DNA of 64,000 nt from Urinicoccus massiliensis (GTDB lineage: Bacteria; Bacillota; Clostridia; Tissierellales; Peptoniphilaceae): assembly GCF_900120405.1 (NCBI RefSeq), contig NZ_LT635492.1, positions 515,478 to 579,477 of the forward strand, written 5' to 3'. A program made the position numbers and the translations under genes. The notes under the pieces are model-generated. The model was not told where the DNA came from and searched no databases. It saw only the letters and a program-made list of their open reading frames with translations. Shown one piece after another: positions 15,525 through 52,584 of this stretch (positions are counted from its first letter, which is position 1; each line of letters opens with the position of its first letter).

Positions 15525-17834
15525 GGAATCCTTCCTTTCTATTTTTTCTATTTTTTCATCATGACCTTCTTTAACAAGACTTGCCGGCCTGGATTCTTGG
15601 TCCACCGGCAGGGTCTTGGCCTTAAAGGCATTGAGCCTCAGGGCATTGGTCACCACAAAAAGACTGGACATACTCATGGCAAAGGCCGCAATCATGGGAC
15701 TTAAACTCAGGGAAAAGGCCCGGTAAAAGACTCCCGCAGCAATGGGAATCCCAATGACATTGTAGAAAAAGGCCCAAAATAAATTTTCCTTGATATTTTT
15801 CACCGTGGCAGCACTGAGGTCCCAGGCATAGACAAAGTCCCCCAGGTCAGAGTGCATTAAAACCACATCCGCCGAGTCAATGGCAATGTCCGTTCCGGCC
15901 CCAATGGCCACCCCGACTTCTGCCCGGGCCAAGGCCGGAGCGTCGTTGATCCCGTCTCCCACCATGGCCACCTTACCCAATTTTTGTCCTTGCCGAACCT
16001 GCCCTTCCTTTTGGTCCGGGAAAATCCCAGCTACAATTTCATCCAGGGCTAAGTCCTTGGCAATGGCTTGGGCTGTCAGGGCATGGTCTCCGGTTAACAT
16101 GACGGTTTTCAAACCCCGGGCCCTTAATTGGTCAATGGCCTCCTTGGACCCATCCTTAATCTTGTCAGCCAGGGCCACTGCCCCTAAAAACTTTCCTTCC
16201 TTGGCCACATACAAGAGGGTTTTTCCCTCCCTAGACAGGCCCTCCAGGTCCTTCAAATCTTGAACTTCGATGGAAAAAGCATCCATTAATTTTTTATTGC
16301 CTAATAAAAGCCGGCCCGAGGCAAAATCCCCCACCAGGCCCTGGCCCAGAATGTTTTGGAAGTCAAAATCTTCTTTTTCTCCTTGGACCTCAGGCAAATA
16401 ATCCACCAGGGCCTTGGCCAGAGGGTGTTCCGATTGGCCCTCTAAAAGAGCAATCCGTTCCTTCTCCCCATCCAAGCCCCCATAGTCAATCCAATCCACC
16501 ACCTGGGGTTGGCCCTGGGTAATGGTTCCAGTCTTGTCCAAAAAGACTCCTTTGACCTTGTGGAGTTCCTCCAGGGCCTCGGCATTTTTAAACAAGATCC
16601 CCTTCTTGGCCCCCATACCTGTTCCCACCATAATGGCCACAGGCGTCGCCAGGCCCAAGGCACAGGGACAGGAAATCACCAAGACGGCAATCATCTTGCC
16701 CAGGGCAAATTCCAAACCATAGCCCAGAAAAATCCAAACGAAAAAAGTTAAAAGACTAATGGCCATAACCGCCGGCACAAAAATCGCAGAAATTTCGTCC
16801 GCCAACTTGGCAATGGGAGCCTTGCTGGCATTGGCATCCTTTACCAGGGCAATAATCTTATTGATGGTGGTTTCTTCCCCTACCCGGTCCACCTGGACTT
16901 CAATATAACTTTCCAGGTTGATGGTGGCAGCCAAAACCTGGTCTTGGACCCCCTTGTCCACCGGGAGACTTTCCCCCGTTAGAGAAGATTGGTCCACTGT
17001 GGTCTGACCCTTAACGATTACCCCATCTACAGGAATGGATTGGCCAGGCTTGATTAAAACCAAGTCCCCCAACCTCACCTGGTCCAGGGGGATGGTTTCT
17101 TCCACACCCTCCCGGCGAACCGTGGCCAGGTCCGGCGTCAAGTCCATGAGCTGGTCAATAGCCCCAGTGGTCTTGGACTTGGCCCGGGCTTCCAACCACT
17201 TACCCATGGTTATCAAGGTTAAAATCATCCCTGCCGATTCGAAATAAAGGTCGTGGTGGTAGCGATCAATCCTTGCCATATCCTGGTAGGAAAACCCATA
17301 GGCCAGCTGGTAGATGACAAAGAGGCCATATAAAAAGGCCGCCCCGGACCCTACAGCCACCAAAGAATCCATGGTGGGTCGCCGGTGGATCAAGGCCTTA
17401 AAACCCGAAATAAAATACCTCCGGTTGAGGATTAAAATCGGCAAGGTCAAAAGACACTGGCTCAGGGCCAGGATCAAACTATTTTGCATCCCTTGGAAAA
17501 AAGAAAAAGTCGGCAGCCCCATCATGGGCCCCATGGCAATATAAAATAAGGGGATTAGAAAAATCAAAGACGACAAAAAGAAAGTCTTTAGGTCTTCTGC
17601 CGGGTCCTCCTTGGCCGGGGCCCCTTGACCTGCCGGGTCTTTTACCCCGTAGCCTGCCGCTTGGACAGCCCGGACCACCTCTTGCCTTAGGTCACCTTGG
17701 CCCTCCACCAACATGTCCCCCGTCAAGAGGTTAACCGAAACCGATTCAACTCCCTTGACAGACCCGACACTTTTTTCCACAGCATTTTGACATGCCGAGC
17801 AGGTCATACCTGTGACGATAAATTTTTCCTTCAA
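15321..17834 (-). CDS. copA: Cu(I)-exporting P1B-type ATPase with N- and C-terminal HMA domains
   Basis: 837 residues from TTG 17832-17834, which lies 8 nt after AGGAGG; a GTG three codons earlier overlaps that site. N-terminal HMA domain with GMTCSACQ (about 10-70), transmembrane helices, TGE loop (SSLTGES), metal-site CPC (ISCPCALGLATP), phosphorylation DKTGTITQG, SEHPLA, GDGINDAP. The last helices carry YN and MSMSS, the Cu(I) signature. It pumps Cu(I) out of the cell. After the last helix a charged linker leads to a second HMA domain (GMACGHCKKRVEE) that looks like free CopZ. No CsoR or CopY gene is adjacent. Confidence 0.95.
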   Translation of the reverse strand: MKEKFIVTGMTCSACQNAVEKSVGSVKGVESVSVNLLTGDMLVEGQGDLRQEVVRAVQAAGYGVKDPAGQGAPAKEDPAEDLKTFFLSSLIFLIPLFYIAMGPMMGLPTFSFFQGMQNSLILALSQCLLTLPILILNRRYFISGFKALIHRRPTMDSLVAVGSGAAFLYGLFVIYQLAYGFSYQDMARIDRYHHDLYFESAGMILTLITMGKWLEARAKSKTTGAIDQLMDLTPDLATVRREGVEETIPLDQVRLGDLVLIKPGQSIPVDGVIVKGQTTVDQSSLTGESLPVDKGVQDQVLAATINLESYIEVQVDRVGEETTINKIIALVKDANASKAPIAKLADEISAIFVPAVMAISLLTFFVWIFLGYGLEFALGKMIAVLVISCPCALGLATPVAIMVGTGMGAKKGILFKNAEALEELHKVKGVFLDKTGTITQGQPQVVDWIDYGGLDGEKERIALLEGQSEHPLAKALVDYLPEVQGEKEDFDFQNILGQGLVGDFASGRLLLGNKKLMDAFSIEVQDLKDLEGLSREGKTLLYVAKEGKFLGAVALADKIKDGSKEAIDQLRARGLKTVMLTGDHALTAQAIAKDLALDEIVAGIFPDQKEGQVRQGQKLGKVAMVGDGINDAPALARAEVGVAIGAGTDIAIDSADVVLMHSDLGDFVYAWDLSAATVKNIKENLFWAFFYNVIGIPIAAGVFYRAFSLSLSPMIAAFAMSMSSLFVVTNALRLNAFKAKTLPVDQESRPASLVKEGHDEKIEKIERKDSMNQIVLKVEGMACGHCKKRVEEALGALEGVKGEVSLEEKQVTISYPDEVSVKDLKDAIQEAGYEVVS

Positions 17835-19522: not shown

Positions 19523-19528
19523 AAAATA

Positions 19529-19559
19529 ACCAGTCGGGAAAAGCCGGCTGGTTTTTTTG
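19529..19559 (+). terminator. terminator after the MltG-like gene
   Basis: ACCAGtCGG, loop, CCGgCTGGT and seven Ts on the plus strand, 6 nt after the stop. Confidence 0.9.
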
Positions 19560-19583
19560 TTGGGTGGATGAATAAAAACAATT

Positions 19584-19607
19584 GTAGGGGCCGGCCTCGT
19601 GTCGCCC
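19584..19607 (+). repeat. REP-like element A (degenerate)
   Basis: GTAG head followed by GGGCCGG...GTCGCCC and then GTATT. The left arm matches the element at 52323, the right arm the element ending at 20213, so the stem pairs only at its base; it looks chimeric. The downstream 35 bp (TATATGGATATtGGG) recur after 20213. Confidence 0.6.
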
Positions 19608-19690
19608 GTATTGTTAAGCAGAGTATATGGATATTGGGAATACATCCCTATTTAAAATCTCCCCTGTATTCATTCTTTTCCCTATATATT

Positions 19691-19836
19691 GGGGAAGGAA
19701 GTAGGGCGTTCACTGTCAATTTCTACCAATCGGCCTTCGTTTCGCTCGGCCTCTTGGGAAATCTTAGTATCTGACCTTCTATAACTCGCTTCGCTCGTTA
19801 AGATAGGTCATGATTTCTTCGCCCTATCCTTCCCCA
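19691..19836. repeat. long inverted repeat enclosing smaller hairpins
   Basis: Arms GGGGAAGGA-GTAGGGCG (19691-19708) and CGCCCTAT-CCTTCCCC (19820-19836) pair almost completely around about 110 bp. Inside lie a CCAA..GGCC/GGCC..TTGG palindrome (about 19727-19757) and the hairpin at 19772-19810. A second pair of arms, TAGGTCATGATTtCTTC (19804-19820) and GAGGAAGcAATCATGACCTA (19865-19884), overlaps it, so alternative folds are possible. Confidence 0.6.
19772..19810. repeat. TGACCTA-type hairpin, copy 1
   Basis: TGACCT at 19772 and TAGGTCA at 19804-19810 flank an inner palindrome built on CTCGCTTCGCTCG. It shares its outer arms, but not its inner sequence, with the elements at 19878-19921 and 20111-20148. 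Confidence 0.55.
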
Positions 19837-19877
19837 AACCCCAACCTCTCACCCTAACGCCCTGGAGGAAGCAATCA

Positions 19878-19921
19878 TGACCTAACCCGACGAGAGCAAA
19901 GCTCGAGTCGCAGGTAGGTCA
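19878..19921. repeat. TGACCTA-type hairpin, copy 2
   Basis: TGACCTA (19878-19884) and TAGGTCA (19915-19921) with inner stems CC/GG, CGAC/GTCG and GAGAGC/GCTC. The whole 44 nt fold into one interrupted hairpin. Confidence 0.6.
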
Positions 19922-19923
19922 GA

Positions 19924-19962
19924 TATCGCCTTGTTTCAAATCTTTGATTTGTCAAAGGCGAT
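19924..19962. repeat. hairpin with AAATC-TTT-GATTT core
   Basis: ATCGCCTT pairs with AAGGCGAT around an inner AAATC-TTT-GATTT stem-loop. The same core is inside the hairpin at 20111-20148. Confidence 0.55.
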
Positions 19963-19966
19963 GCAA

Positions 19967-20033
19967 TCGACAAGCCTAAAAATTCAAAACTCGCTTCGCT
20001 CAAACATTGAATTTTTTTAACGGCTCATCGATT
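19967..20033. repeat. nested hairpin with GAGCGAAG-type core
   Basis: Outer arms ATCGA-n3-GCC and GGC-n3-TCGAT enclose a 10-bp stem AAAAATTCAA/TTGAATTTTT whose loop holds CTCGCTTCGCTC, the same core as in 19772-19810. Confidence 0.6.
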
Positions 20034-20091
20034 TTTTCTCTCAATCTGAATCATCGAATCGTTACATTTTCTGGTAATGTGGGGTTGGTCC

Positions 20092-20213
20092 GTGGGGGCG
20101 ACCTTGTTCATGACCTAAGCCGAAATCTTTGATTTCGTAGCTAGGTCATATGCAGTCTTTCACAGCGAAAGGAGCGAGAGCGAACTTGAGCTGATGAAAA
20201 GTTGTAGTCGCCC
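20092..20213 (+). repeat. REP-like element split by a 104-nt insert
   Basis: The left part is a GTGG head plus GGGCGAC (20096-20102); the right part is GTCGCCC (20207-20213) followed by GTATT as in the elements at 19584 and 52323. The two arms pair perfectly over 7 bp, the same stem length as in the intact elements at 52323-52584. The 104 nt between them carry the hairpin at 20111-20148. This suggests an insertion into the loop of an older REP. Confidence 0.55.
20111..20148. repeat. TGACCTA-type hairpin, copy 3
   Basis: TGACCTA (20111-20117), then GC and GAAATC, a TTT loop, GATTTC, GC and TAGGTCA (20142-20148). It is the most regular of the three copies and lies within the split REP. Confidence 0.6.
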
Positions 20214-20283
20214 GTATTCGTATACAAGATATATGGATATAGGGCATAATATAAATACGCAGAAAATCTCAAACCCCCACAGA

Positions 20284-20309
20284 AAAAAGAGTCCCTAGGG
20301 ACTCTTTTT
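20284..20309. terminator. bidirectional terminator after the SLH protein gene
   Basis: A perfect palindrome: AAAAAGAGTCCC followed by its complement GGGACTCTTTTT. It gives a T-tail in both directions and ends the SLH gene on the minus strand, 16 nt after its stop. Confidence 0.9.
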
Positions 20310-20325
20310 CTTGCTCTTTTAACTT

Positions 20326-23300
20326 TTATTCCCAATCTGCTTTGATATCCAAAATTCTTAACCAGGTCTCCACTTGGCTTCCCTTGACTCTTTGGTATTC
20401 ATGGCTATTGGCTGCTTCCATGATTTCGCAATAGGCCCAGTGGTTTTCATTGATGTCGGTAAAGCGGATGAGGTCTTTTTTGACTCCTTCCATTCCCGGT
20501 ATATTGACATTTCTGTTGGCATATTGGTTTAAGATTCTGGCTGCTTCTGCCCTTTGGATATAGGCATTGGGTTTGAAGCTTCCATCGGGATAACCGGCGA
20601 TCCGGTCATTTCCATAGGCTTGGTTGATGGCTGCTTCAAATTCGTGGCCTTTGACATCGGCAAAGGGTGCGACCTTGTCGTTTTTCTTGTCGATATAGTA
20701 AAGGGCTCTGGCAAATTCTCCCCGGGTAATGGGTTCGTTGGGACGGAAATTGCCGTTTTTGTCGCCAAACATGAGGTCTTTTTTCACCATGATGTTGATG
20801 GCTGAATTGTACCAGGCAGAGGGGGTGTCCTTGAAGTTGGGTTTGGTCTTGTCGGTCATGTCTAATTCGGCCAAGCGGGCAATTAAGGCTGCTGCTTCAG
20901 ACCGGGTGATCATGCCTTCAGGACGGACGGCCTTGTCTACATAACCATAGAGGTACTTGTAGTGGCGACCGATTTCCATTTCAGGACTCTTCTTGGTGGT
21001 TTCCACTTGTACCGGGTTGGCTCCCAGGTACCAATAACCCTTCCAGGTAATGGCTGGAACTGGAGAGGACTTGCCTGGTTTTTTGGCCTTCTTATAGGCC
21101 CTAGCCTGGATGTCTTTCTTAGTAGTATTCGGCTTTAACTGCTCTTTTGGAATAGTTATTTCCCCATTATCCGGATTCACTTGAATTCCTTCAGGCCCTT
21201 TAAACTTCCCGTCTTCACCTTTTGTTACGGTAATTTTTTTATCCTTGTTTTCCGGATCCTTGTATTCTACAGTTACACTTGTGGTGTCCTTGTCGGTGGG
21301 AGTGATGGTTACATTATCATCTCCAACCTCAACCTTGGGTTCCGATGTCTCTTCTTGTGTCGTTGGCGTTTCTTCTGAAGTCTTGTCTTTCCAGATTGCT
21401 TTTACTACTGTGTCTTTTTCTACAGTGATTTCGGTTCCCGGTGCTACTTTTTGACCATCTACTTCCCAAGTATCAAATTCTTGGGTGTCATCTGGGGCTT
21501 TGAAAGCATTTGGTAATACTGTGTAGTCTGATCCTTTATCAACAGTTTTACCTTCCATTGTTCCTTTGCCGCCATTGGCATCGTAGCTTACAGTTGCTTG
21601 GCTCTTTTTCCAAAGAGCTTTGATTACTGTATCTTTGTCTACTTTGATTTTTGTGTTTGGCGCTACTTTTTCTCCATTTACTTCCCAAGTATCAAATTCT
21701 TGGGTGTCATCTGGGGCTTTGAAAGCATTTGGTAATACTGTGTAGTCTGATCCTTTATCAACAGTTTTACCTTCCATTGTTCCTTTGCCGCCATTGGCAT
21801 CGTAGCTTACAGTTGCTTGGCTCTTTTTCCAAAGAGCTTTGATTACTGTATCTTTGTCTACTTTGATTTTTGTGTTTGGCGCTACTTTTTCTCCATTTAC
21901 TTCCCAAGTATCAAATTCTTGGGTGTCATCTGGGGCTTTGAAAGCATTTGGTAATACTGTGTAGTCCGAGCCTTTATCAACAGTTTTACCTTCCATTGTT
22001 CCTTTGCCGCCATTGGCATCATAGCTAACAGTTGCTTGGCTCTTTTTCCAAAGAGCTTTGATTACTGTATCTTTATCTACTTTGATTTTTGCTCCTGCTG
22101 CTACTTCTTTGCCATCTACTTCCCATGCTTTAAATTCTTGGGTGTCGTCCGGGGCTTTGAAAGCATTGGATAGAATCTCATATTCAGCGCCCTTATTTAC
22201 GGTCTTACCTGTCATTTCGCCGGTGCCTTTGTTGGCATCGTAGCTAACAGTTGCAGTTTCGAGAGTCTTGGTTGCCTTATCTGAATCGAGCTTATCGGTG
22301 TCACCTTCAAGACCACCATTATCCTTTGCGGTTGCCTTGATGGTTCCAGCGAGTTCGATCTTTTCCACACTCAGGGTGATCACACCGGTGTTCTCATCAA
22401 CACCAGGTCCGCTCCATTTATTGGTTTGCAAATCTCGCGTTGCGGTGACGGTTTTCTTCGCTCCAGAATTATCTTTATAGGTAATCGTGTAAGACAGCAA
22501 GTCGGTATCATCACCAAGATCTTTATAAGCCGGTGGGGTAATAGTTACTTCACCCTTATCTGTATCTACCTTAATCGCAGGGGATTTAGGTGCGATATTT
22601 TTCACCAGGTCTTTGGCAGGGATTGTTATTTTTGGTTCAGCTCCATCCTTTACCTTGTATGAGCCATCTGCATTTGTTTTCGGAACAAAAGTCCCTTCAC
22701 TGTCCCAATCACCTGCTACATCATTACCGCTAAATATCTTGACATTGCCGCTGTCATCAATTTGTATAACTGCCGGTACTTCTTCATAATATCCGGTTCC
22801 GTTTGGTAATTTAGATTCTCCATTTACTGTGTATGCTGCTCTTATAGCAGCATCAATTGCTTTTTTGTCTTTAGCTGTTAATTTTCTAGGGTCTTTAACT
22901 TCTGTCTTTTCAGGTATTACTGGTTTTACAGTAGTTGTAGAACAAGATACAAATTTATGGGGTTCTTTTACTGTAACGCCGACTACTTGATCAAGTTTTA
23001 AGTCAGGGTTTGGAATTGTATATGTGAATTCTCCTGTTTTACCATCTACAGTTGCATCTACCGCTTTAGATGAGTCTTTGTCAACTGTACACTTGTTTTC
23101 ACTACAAAATTTACCTTTATCTGCTTCGCTAAGCTTCAAAATAATCTGAACCTTTATATCAGTAAAAGGTTTCTCTCCTGATAGTTTTCCCTTAATTACA
23201 TTGTCTACAATTGTAATACTGCCAAGAGTAGCTCCTCTAGAATGTTCAGTAACTTGTTTTATTTTTAAATTTGGAGCTTCTACTTTACCTGATGTCGAAC

Positions 23301-23916
23301 CATCAGTATAGGTTACTTCATAATAAGCATGTTCAGCAGTATTAATAGAAAACTTAACTGTGCTAATATCACCGGCTATTGCAGTGTTTTCATTATTAAA
23401 CATTTCAACAGCTTCTGCTTGTTCATCAGCGTTAACTATATTGGATGAAGTTTGTTCTATCCAAATTTCTCCACTTGGCATTTTAAGAGTAACTGAAGAT
23501 GCCTTAGATGCTTGTGCAGTTACATTTACTTCCGGTGATTTATCTTCACCTATTTGTTGGTAGACTGTGACCTTATCGCCTTTTGCAACTTTAACGCCTT
23601 CAGGTAAGTCTACCTTCCATGTTGTTCCCTTAGTAGGGTTATCAGAAAGAGTGGCTTTTACTGTGCCACCTTCACCTTTTAACGTTACATGGACTGTCGC
23701 TATTACAGTCTTTTTCTTTCCATCAACTTTAACATGAGCTTTTGCTAAATTTGCTCCCGAAATCGTCGTGGCATCGTAGAATACCGGGTTAATTGTCGGT
23801 TTCTTTACAGCAGCCGCATACACGTCCATAGCACCCATGACATGGGTCAAGACCATGACCAGGGCTAAAAGGAAGGCGCCCAGGGGTTTTAGGGTCCTTG
23901 TTTTCTTGTCTTTCAT
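20326..23916 (-). CDS. SLH-domain cell surface protein with InlB-type repeats
   Basis: 1196 residues. A signal peptide (to about residue 36, ...VYAAA) is followed by a Lys/Thr-rich beta-type region (to about 430), an Ig-like part, four 73-residue InlB B-repeat/Flg_new modules (residues 555-845, each starting ATVSYDAN), a further Ig-like stretch and three SLH domains (about 985-1165: GMITRSEAA, PITRGEFARAL, YIQRAEAARIL) that anchor to secondary wall polymer. The protein is thus displayed on the cell wall; adhesion is likely but inferred. Modules 2-4 are nearly identical. The N-terminal part looks more A+T-rich than the rest. Two Cys (SCSTT and SENKC) are unusual for a Gram-positive surface protein. 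Confidence 0.92.
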   Translation of the reverse strand: MKDKKTRTLKPLGAFLLALVMVLTHVMGAMDVYAAAVKKPTINPVFYDATTISGANLAKAHVKVDGKKKTVIATVHVTLKGEGGTVKATLSDNPTKGTTWKVDLPEGVKVAKGDKVTVYQQIGEDKSPEVNVTAQASKASSVTLKMPSGEIWIEQTSSNIVNADEQAEAVEMFNNENTAIAGDISTVKFSINTAEHAYYEVTYTDGSTSGKVEAPNLKIKQVTEHSRGATLGSITIVDNVIKGKLSGEKPFTDIKVQIILKLSEADKGKFCSENKCTVDKDSSKAVDATVDGKTGEFTYTIPNPDLKLDQVVGVTVKEPHKFVSCSTTTVKPVIPEKTEVKDPRKLTAKDKKAIDAAIRAAYTVNGESKLPNGTGYYEEVPAVIQIDDSGNVKIFSGNDVAGDWDSEGTFVPKTNADGSYKVKDGAEPKITIPAKDLVKNIAPKSPAIKVDTDKGEVTITPPAYKDLGDDTDLLSYTITYKDNSGAKKTVTATRDLQTNKWSGPGVDENTGVITLSVEKIELAGTIKATAKDNGGLEGDTDKLDSDKATKTLETATVSYDANKGTGEMTGKTVNKGAEYEILSNAFKAPDDTQEFKAWEVDGKEVAAGAKIKVDKDTVIKALWKKSQATVSYDANGGKGTMEGKTVDKGSDYTVLPNAFKAPDDTQEFDTWEVNGEKVAPNTKIKVDKDTVIKALWKKSQATVSYDANGGKGTMEGKTVDKGSDYTVLPNAFKAPDDTQEFDTWEVNGEKVAPNTKIKVDKDTVIKALWKKSQATVSYDANGGKGTMEGKTVDKGSDYTVLPNAFKAPDDTQEFDTWEVDGQKVAPGTEITVEKDTVVKAIWKDKTSEETPTTQEETSEPKVEVGDDNVTITPTDKDTTSVTVEYKDPENKDKKITVTKGEDGKFKGPEGIQVNPDNGEITIPKEQLKPNTTKKDIQARAYKKAKKPGKSSPVPAITWKGYWYLGANPVQVETTKKSPEMEIGRHYKYLYGYVDKAVRPEGMITRSEAAALIARLAELDMTDKTKPNFKDTPSAWYNSAINIMVKKDLMFGDKNGNFRPNEPITRGEFARALYYIDKKNDKVAPFADVKGHEFEAAINQAYGNDRIAGYPDGSFKPNAYIQRAEAARILNQYANRNVNIPGMEGVKKDLIRFTDINENHWAYCEIMEAANSHEYQRVKGSQVETWLRILDIKADWE
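21382..22254 (-). repeat. four tandem 219-bp repeats within the SLH protein gene
   Basis: Units start at 22254, 22035, 21816 and 21597 on the minus strand, exactly 219 bp apart. Units 2, 3 and most of 4 are almost identical at the DNA level, down to synonymous sites; unit 1 differs in its first half. This points to recent expansion and to possible length variation between strains. Confidence 0.9.
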
Positions 23917-24015
23917 TCTATCTCCTCTCTTGTTTTCTCTCTTGGCTTGCTTTATCTCGGCGGGGCCAAGTCTGATTTTTTCTTGCTTGGTTTTCTGATA
24001 GTATCTCTTACTTTA

Positions 24016-24044
24016 ATGATAGCTAATTTACTTGATTTATGCAA
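24016..24044 (-). promoter_or_regulatory. promoter of the SLH protein gene
   Basis: TTGCAT (24039-24044), 17 nt, TATCAT (24016-24021) on the minus strand, giving a leader of about 90 nt. The rest of the 247-bp gap up to the guaB terminator shows nothing clear. Confidence 0.55.
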
Positions 24045-24127
24045 GTTTTTTTGACTTTTTTTAGGGCCTTGGCTCTCTTCCTTGCTGGCGGATGAAGGTT
24101 GGTTTTTATGGCTGGGTTCCTCTTCCT

Positions 24128-24160
24128 ATAAAAAGAGCCGGGACTCTGGATCCCGGCTCG
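24128..24160 (-). terminator. terminator after guaB
   Basis: GAGCCGGGA, loop, TCCCGGCTC with a TTTTTAT tail on the minus strand, directly after the guaB stop. Confidence 0.9.
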
Positions 24161-24163
24161 GTT

Positions 24164-26845
<2,682 letters not shown>

Positions 26846-52322: not shown

Positions 52323-52345
52323 GTAGGGGCCGGCCTGTCCGGCCC
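52323..52345 (+). repeat. REP element 1
   Basis: 23 nt: GTAG head, GGGCCGG, 5-nt loop, CCGGCCC. Followed by GTATT as in the copies at 19584 and 20213. The GTAG head plus hairpin is the form recognised by RAYT transposases in other bacteria. Confidence 0.7.
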
Positions 52346-52428
52346 GTATTGCTAATCAGAAAATACAAACATAGGGAATAAAACCAATAACCATGATTCC
52401 CCCATAGCAACATTTTCCCCTTGCAAAA

Positions 52429-52451
52429 GGGCGATATAAAATCGCCCCTAC
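52429..52451 (-). repeat. REP element 2 (inverted)
   Basis: On the minus strand: GTAG, GGGCGAT, 5-nt loop, ATCGCCC. Same lengths as the other two, with a different but fully paired stem. Confidence 0.7.
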
Positions 52452-52561
52452 GGTCCATCCAGCAATGTGTTGGAAAATCTACCAATTCAATTATTTCATT
52501 AAACATAGGGAACAAGATCAATACCCAAACCCCAAAATAAACACATTCAGGATTGGGGTAA

Positions 52562-52584
52562 GGGCGGCACAGGGCCGCCCCTAC
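52562..52584 (-). repeat. REP element 3 (inverted)
   Basis: On the minus strand: GTAG, GGGCGGC, 5-nt loop, GCCGCCC. Together with element 1 it forms a head-to-head pair like a REPIN. Confidence 0.7.

Follow-up and report, generated by a model that had tools for sequence, protein, structure and literature searches.

Does the hairpin at positions 20092 to 20213 represent a REP whose loop has been opened by a second mobile hairpin and, if so, what is the guest and how could it have arrived there? The window, by which we mean the whole 64,000-nt stretch analysed, sits in a 2.09-Mb genome (G000:C12:515478-579477). An earlier, sequence-only reading had taken 20092-20102 and 20207-20218 to be the two halves of a single REP stem, and both can be read directly (GTGG, GGGCGAC, then CTTGT on one side; GTCGCCC, then GTATT on the other). 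It also placed 104 nt with one 38-nt hairpin between them. That hairpin, H1, is present, but the 104 nt consist of a 5-nt loop and a 99-nt insert, and the insert holds a second hairpin, H2. The outer element is a GTGG-tagged REP (stem of 7 bp, loop of 5 nt). The 99-nt element that splits it, which we call insert A, begins directly after the REP loop and ends directly before the 3' stem arm, and no target sequence is duplicated. The parts of the locus are as follows.

19965-20089, plus strand: left flank, 91% over 125 bp with a paralogous empty site in L052
20092-20107, plus strand: 5' half of the REP, with tag GTGG (20092-20095), arm GGGCGAC (20096-20102) and loop CTTGT (20103-20107)
20108-20206, plus strand: insert A, double-hairpin element of 99 nt, TCATGACC...GTTGTA; ends from 35 copies, the L109 tandem and the empty-site alignment
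20111-20148, plus strand: hairpin H1, TGACCTA..TAGGTCA; from the fold and the copy alignment
about 20157-20201, plus strand: hairpin H2, CTTTCACAGC...GCTGATGAAAAG; from the fold and the copy alignment
20207-20213, plus strand: REP 3' arm GTCGCCC, followed by GTATT; read from the sequence
20214-20270, plus strand: REP-type right flank, common to the flanks of intact REPs; 20208-20268 matches L053 at 85%, and from the empty-site alignment

When 20082-20260 is folded as single-strand DNA it gives a z of -3.46, and none of 200 shuffles is as stable. H1 and H2 are both predicted within the REP stem in the centroid fold; the minimum-energy fold keeps H1 and H2 and pairs the REP arms otherwise, so that the REP stem is not formed. 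The REP arms of the composite can still pair round the insert, which would produce a three-way junction. Two REP-like half-sites flanking a hairpin could also be a product of chance, the more so as the tag of the window copy, GTGG, is one mismatch from the commonest tag, GTAG. Of 2000 dinucleotide shuffles of 19523-20325, 14 contained a GTRGG tag together with a perfect 7-bp stem in a span of about 137 nt, and over the whole window (plus strand) tag and stem were counted 5 times, compared to a mean of 1.6 and a maximum of 5 in 30 shuffles. Because the whole-window count equals the shuffle maximum, the stem by itself is not decisive, and it is the flank homology that decides. The 14 of 2000 stands against chance even before that homology and 13 further composites are brought in, and chance pairing, rejected on the flank homology and the shuffles, is to us a negligible explanation.

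The outer element conforms to what is described for GTAG REPs, namely the tag, a stem of at least 7 nt, a loop of 2-5 nt and a RAYT (PMC3733652 and PMC6006769), where the tag may be GTAG or GTGG (PMC6006769). Its GT[AG]G tag immediately precedes a 7-bp stem on the 5' side, its loop measures 5 nt when the insert is discounted, and it is multi-copy. The pattern GTAGGGGCN{7,12}GCCC has 51 matches in G000 and 45 in the congener G001, with 0 in the reversed control, and whole REPs with a 5-nt loop make up 43 of the 51 and 38 of the 45. The stretch at 52323-52584, cited by the sequence-only reading for its intact elements, does hold intact REPs, as three separate ones (52323 on the plus strand, 52451 and 52584 on the minus strand). 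The RAYT (Y1) gene that it suggested looking for is present as well. The RAYT in G001 scores 81.7 bits, above the NF047646 cut-off of 80, and the Y1 protein of G000 scores 72 bits as a RAYT, under that cut-off and well over its own IS200 score of 39.1; both score best as REP-associated tyrosine transposase, and their genes adjoin REP clusters. The likeness to GTAG REP/REPIN systems with their RAYT is that of the split outer element, in its tag, 7-bp stem, 5-nt loop, roughly 40 whole copies per genome and RAYT gene. The difference is that the insert itself is no GTAG REP and is found in the next genus (g2), where GTAG REPs are at background: the same pattern has 1 match in each of three g2 genomes compared to 4-5 in the reversed control.

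The flank homology comes from paralogs of the site within the same genome, two of them filled (the window and L055) and two empty (both in L052, on the reverse complement at 13690-13440 and 17975-17740). In both empty paralogs a homologous left flank leads to an intact REP, and the filled copy of L055 matches the left flank of the split REP at 81% over 315 bp, insert included. In the alignment of filled and empty paralogs the gap falls exactly at 20107|20207 and equals the element, with nothing duplicated. L052 further holds a tandem array in which a filled, an intact and a rearranged REP follow one another. The alignment may of course be read in the opposite direction, with the composite as a conserved structured RNA or DNA element (the three-way junction) and the intact REPs as its deletion derivatives, and the outer arms and both hairpins do pair with compensatory differences, as that would lead one to expect. 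We rejected deletion by slippage between the TTGT repeats because it would leave an extra A that the intact REPs do not have. The numbers also go the other way, with 43 and 38 whole REPs compared to 4 and 10 insert-A composites in G000 and G001, and the insert is also found outside REPs. We consider this direction highly unlikely.

An empty site in a related genome had been proposed as the check on insertion, and here the answer is divided: paralogous empty REPs exist in the same genome, but no orthologous uninterrupted REP was found in the two intervals compared between G000 and G001. In each of these one genome is without the whole REP block, which is not counter-evidence. The comparison used one genome per species, and of three proteins sought, two led to intervals that were read, the third ortholog being 45% identical with a broken frame. 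Gene names here are those we presume from protein sequence. From the mltG-like gene to guaB (24164-25624 in the window), G001 has little more than a terminator; the block at 19523-24163, with its REPs, three double-hairpin elements and a 1196-aa SLH-domain gene, is missing between the same neighbours. The ald-hemA interval has REPs and two composites in G001 and none in G000. Downstream of rplA a composite is found in both genomes with different REP arms, which may mean that certain sites were inherited and not hit afresh.

The sequence-only reading had also asked whether the insert occurs elsewhere. Searching G000 and G001 with insert A gave 19 matches, 14 of which include H2 (4 in G000 and 10 in G001) and 5 only H1, and 22 more copies were extracted from g2, for an alignment of 35 copies together with 13 from the genus of the window (g1). 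The fourteenth g1 copy is a 192-nt form with extra hairpins between H1 and H2, which takes the nesting up to three levels. All 14 g1 copies lie inside REPs, in a single orientation to the REP tag. When the joined flanks of 13 of them were folded, 11 placed the junction at the 3' loop edge and the other 2 a single nt within the loop. Cognate REP arms round the inserts form Watson-Crick pairs at 91 of 98 positions, compared to a permuted mean of 73.9 with 0 of 20000 permutations as high; when each arm combination is counted once (10 distinct), the figure is 63 of 70 pairs, with 2 of 20000 as high. In L109 two copies stand head to tail, as GTTGTA|TCATGACC, which fixes both ends of the insert. Across g1 and g2 the ends and the linker are invariant and the hairpin interiors vary with pairing maintained, such that 95.4% of cells are paired while slid controls reach at most 34.1%. 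Five pairs have changed on both sides (0 of 500 shuffles). H1 in the window copy has G-C where other copies have C-G (columns 12/40), and both-side changes in H2 separate the two genera at columns 59/98 and 63/93.

These copies bear on a further possibility, in which the composite was copied whole by the RAYT as one larger REP-type element and the insert itself is now immobile. A left flank and composite common to the window and L055 would be explained in this way, and the RAYT genes are beside REP clusters in both genomes. The inserts of G001, however, are 95-100% identical while the REP arms enclosing them differ: among the 9 of 10 copies that are of equal length (36 pairs), the inserts differ at 0-5 of 105 nt with a median of 3, and the 18 nt of the REP arms differ at a median of 5. 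Copying by a RAYT is also hard to reconcile with the presence of insert A in g2, given that GTAG REPs do not rise above background there and that its full-length Y1 matches score as a strong IS200 type (most 128-143 bits compared to 42-44 for RAYTs; the weaker ones are partial). Whole copying is decidedly unlikely. Since insert A is multi-copy in g2, the REP is probably the landing site only and not the motor of the insert. The g2 copies lie in a hairpin loop in 5 of 22 cases, after GGRCCC in 14 and behind other left flanks in 3.

We regard it as very likely that 20108-20206 is an insertion in a REP loop and belongs to a wider double-hairpin family. The idea of a second mobile hairpin element in the REP loop is supported by the empty paralogs, by near-identical inserts in differing arms and by the presence of the insert in g2, a genus with background numbers of GTAG REPs. 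That reading needs amending on the guest, which is not a single hairpin: it consists of two and represents a much wider family.

Related arrangements were seen along the way. At L052:6511-6725 and on the minus strand of L052 at 18353, hairpins in an insert in a REP give three-level nesting, and the last hairpin differs between the two copies, which suggests module exchange. REP loops are also split by another double-hairpin insert, composite B (TGAAGCCCTAGCCC...GACGGCT), which among the matches listed interrupts them in mid-loop and not at the 3' edge; its sites include L055:3598, L052 (11726 on the minus and 13314 on the plus strand), L057:11329 and L060 (9012, minus strand). Its right side is GT or AT, in accord with the type of the REP arm.

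How far the family extends was estimated with R1, a covariance model built from the insert. R1 E-values are rough; its matches occur in 89 of 249 genomes of the order, in 32 of 92 genera and six families, and insert A is one case of an apparently undescribed family of double hairpins of about 100 nt. The block to the left of the split REP holds two more members, one of them in another nested hairpin.

19584-19607, plus strand: REP with ill-matched arms (GTAGGGGCCGGCCTCGTGTCGCCC); from the sequence and the REP pattern
19689-19837, no strand assigned: second hairpin-in-hairpin, outer stem TTGGGGAAGGA..TAGGGCG / CGCCCTA TCCTTCCCCAA
19709-19813, minus strand: family member within that stem, H1 and a different second hairpin; boundaries by eye
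19875-19965, plus strand: third family member, H1 and a TTGTTTCAAATC hairpin; model R1, G000:C12:535352-535442, E 8.8e-10

The outer hairpin of 19689-19837 has copies with the loop AATCAAGA only, in L052 near 13705 and 18002. The same L052 stretch also carries a THF riboswitch at 15647-15737 (RF01831, 51.4 bits).

To see where members of the family lie we used 89 listed matches in 80 stretches, which are the strongest listed outside the insert-A copies and known loci and so are not a random sample. Twelve of the 89 start 0-2 nt past the 3' end of a tRNA on the same strand, 10 of them at exactly 0, and the tRNA species flanked (Asp, Ala, Gly, Val, Glu and Ile) come from four families of the order. 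Val, Glu and Ala account for three cases each, probably orthologs or repeats, so the 12 come down to about six independent loci. Wherever a listed same-strand match has a tRNA within 300 nt upstream, the nearest tRNA is 0-2 nt away; for seven other listed elements the tRNA is on the opposite strand, with its 3' end 35-86 nt away. Depending on the genome, the element stands behind Glu, Val or Asp in the Glu-Val-Asp-Thr tRNA operon; the Val-Asp spacer measures 129 nt where it contains an element (G238) and 27 nt where it does not (G013). Three of the 89 listed matches adjoin rRNA 3' ends (5S twice, at 1 and 2 nt, and 23S once, with a 2-nt overlap) and 16 follow a T-run, most with a preceding hairpin and four behind T-box leaders. 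Most of the remaining rows belong to none of these three classes.

A general rule that the element always lies 3' of a hairpin was tried and found little support. In 87 of the 89 rows (two were dropped for too little or masked upstream sequence), a stem of at least 6 just 5' of the element start was found in 17, compared to 13.6% of 2578 control positions, and one of at least 7 in 11, compared to 6.6% of controls, which is a weak excess only. A choice by these elements of the 3' ends of structured RNAs, or of the single-stranded hairpins that encode them (tRNA CCA, 5S and 23S, terminators and REP loops), would tie the classes together, and we hold it tentatively, at somewhat less than even probability. 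If true, 3'-end targeting would be a mode for which we found no description among bacterial non-autonomous elements in the open-licence literature, and hairpin-in-hairpin nesting would be a by-product of it.

The tRNA and rRNA positions could alternatively point to an RNA intermediate, with the element RNA joined to, or reverse-transcribed beside, the free 3' ends of RNAs (tRNA CCA, 5S, 23S or a terminator U-tract) and copied back into DNA. The distance to the last stem varies while the mature RNA 3' end is constant, with 0 nt after CCA in 10 of the 12 listed tRNA cases, and among the listed matches rRNA 3' ends and T-runs are used too. This route would fit the tRNA and rRNA ends better than a Y1 transposase does, but not the REP loops: no RNA 3' end is known at a REP loop, at the GGRCCC site or at a phage stop codon. 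It would also have to form the right-hand junction, and the seven near-tRNA elements on the opposite strand do not suit it. On the whole we think it unlikely.

The stop codon site is seen in viral contigs (25 stretches), where in 9 of 22 distinct sites the upstream frame stops at the start of the element, its stop codon being the leading TAA of TAATGACC; the 9 come from two gene junctions seen repeatedly. Prophages of other genera (L067, L068, L072, L073, L078 and L088) show the element after a truncated 5' copy of a phage gene, whose product we take to be either a tail protein or a prohead protease of the ClpP type. Past the element the gene is present once more, as a complete, diverged copy, seen in full for L067 and L088. 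In the L181 prophage the frame of the portal gene runs into the element and would gain about 29 C-terminal codons. A plasmid search with one element gave no match.

Returning to insertion at the DNA level, our best explanation is that a mobile, non-coding element of about 100 nt with two adjacent hairpins inserts at the 3' loop edge of a GTAG-type REP. Its target would be a folded single strand, either a hairpin loop or a structured 3' end, and the element itself would move as a single strand through an enzyme acting in trans, possibly a Y1 (HUH) transposase working on exposed single-stranded DNA. Two terminal hairpins, the lack of duplication and the T-runs left of the resident IS200-like copies make Y1 in trans a fitting candidate. 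Among the 17 listed IS200-like copies of g1 and g2 (located in L001-L004 and L117-L144, with the L004 copy directly after an intact REP), 12 have at least 3 consecutive T within the final ten bases of the left flank. MITEs derived from IS200/IS605, such as the PATE-like ones, resemble the insert in the two terminal hairpins, the absence of target duplication, the strand-specific orientation and the frequent T-runs on the left. They are unlike it in their ends, in that the insert has no conserved target sequence and in that there are carriers without Y1. The ends of all 17 listed IS200-like copies differ from those of the insert, for which reason we rejected it as a MITE of the resident IS200, and the left flanks of the elements (CTNGT, TTTAT, TTGCGATT, GGRCCC, CCA and others) amount to no fixed target sequence. 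Matches to PF01797 (Y1) occur in 40 of 55 R1-positive genomes of the bacterial family and in 34 of 75 others (p 0.002, kinship ignored); the 15 R1-positive genomes of the family with no match include G021 (8 element matches), G041 (6) and G089 (12). No autonomous element with the ends of the insert was seen. For the Y1-in-trans step the balance is somewhat against, and we put it forward as a possibility worth keeping.

Other candidates were tried and rejected. Mobilisation by IS110/IS1111 does not agree with PF01548, which occurs in 1 of 10 genomes and is absent from G001 and from all four g2 genomes that carry insert A. Rfam covariance models at the gathering score gave no known RNA over the element in the stretches searched. 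The CTGATGA and GAAA motifs of a hammerhead ribozyme are in the insert, yet by eye they fall in stem positions.

Parts of this picture have precedents. Insertion sequences in REPs are described in PMC1525189 and, together with REP dimers within palindromes, in section 7 of PMC3733652, and PMC8450116 presents ISPpu9 as a REP-targeting IS. Our case shares with these ISs (IS1397, IS621, ISKpn1 and ISPpu9), and with REPs within palindromes, the insertion into a REP or palindrome; it differs in that the guest is a non-coding double hairpin of 99-105 nt and the REP is the host. Stem-loop families are treated in PMC2267715. A closer likeness in shape is found in fungal mitochondria, examples being the DHE of Allomyces, the ultra-short invasive elements of Podospora and the palindromes beside tRNA genes of Neurospora. 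Such double-hairpin elements are argued to be mobile, are non-coding and in some cases lie beside tRNA genes (cited in PMC7218506 and PMC2800124). The insert is like them by description only, in having two hairpins, being non-coding and being present or absent at like sites, and the present family differs in residing in bacterial chromosomes and phages. What was known already is therefore that ISs enter REPs, that REPs enter palindromes and that fungal mitochondria have double hairpins; in the open-licence literature we found no bacterial family of such shape and targeting, nor any bacterial family of double hairpins placed at the ends of tRNAs.

REPs and other small hairpin repeats are usually treated as a single mobile system bound to a single transposase. 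Here REPs serve as landing sites for a second hairpin family, unrelated to them, and in other genomes members of that family stand flush with the mature 3' ends of tRNA and rRNA genes. The REP-nested insert thus offers a testable case of structure-guided insertion and a source of compound hairpins of two and three levels. Such insertions may have effects on RNA 3'-end processing and also on the recognition of REPs by the RAYT, because loop bases of the REP are read by some RAYTs (PMC8266576). Elements with no necessary dependence on the RAYT can in this way remodel REP arrays.
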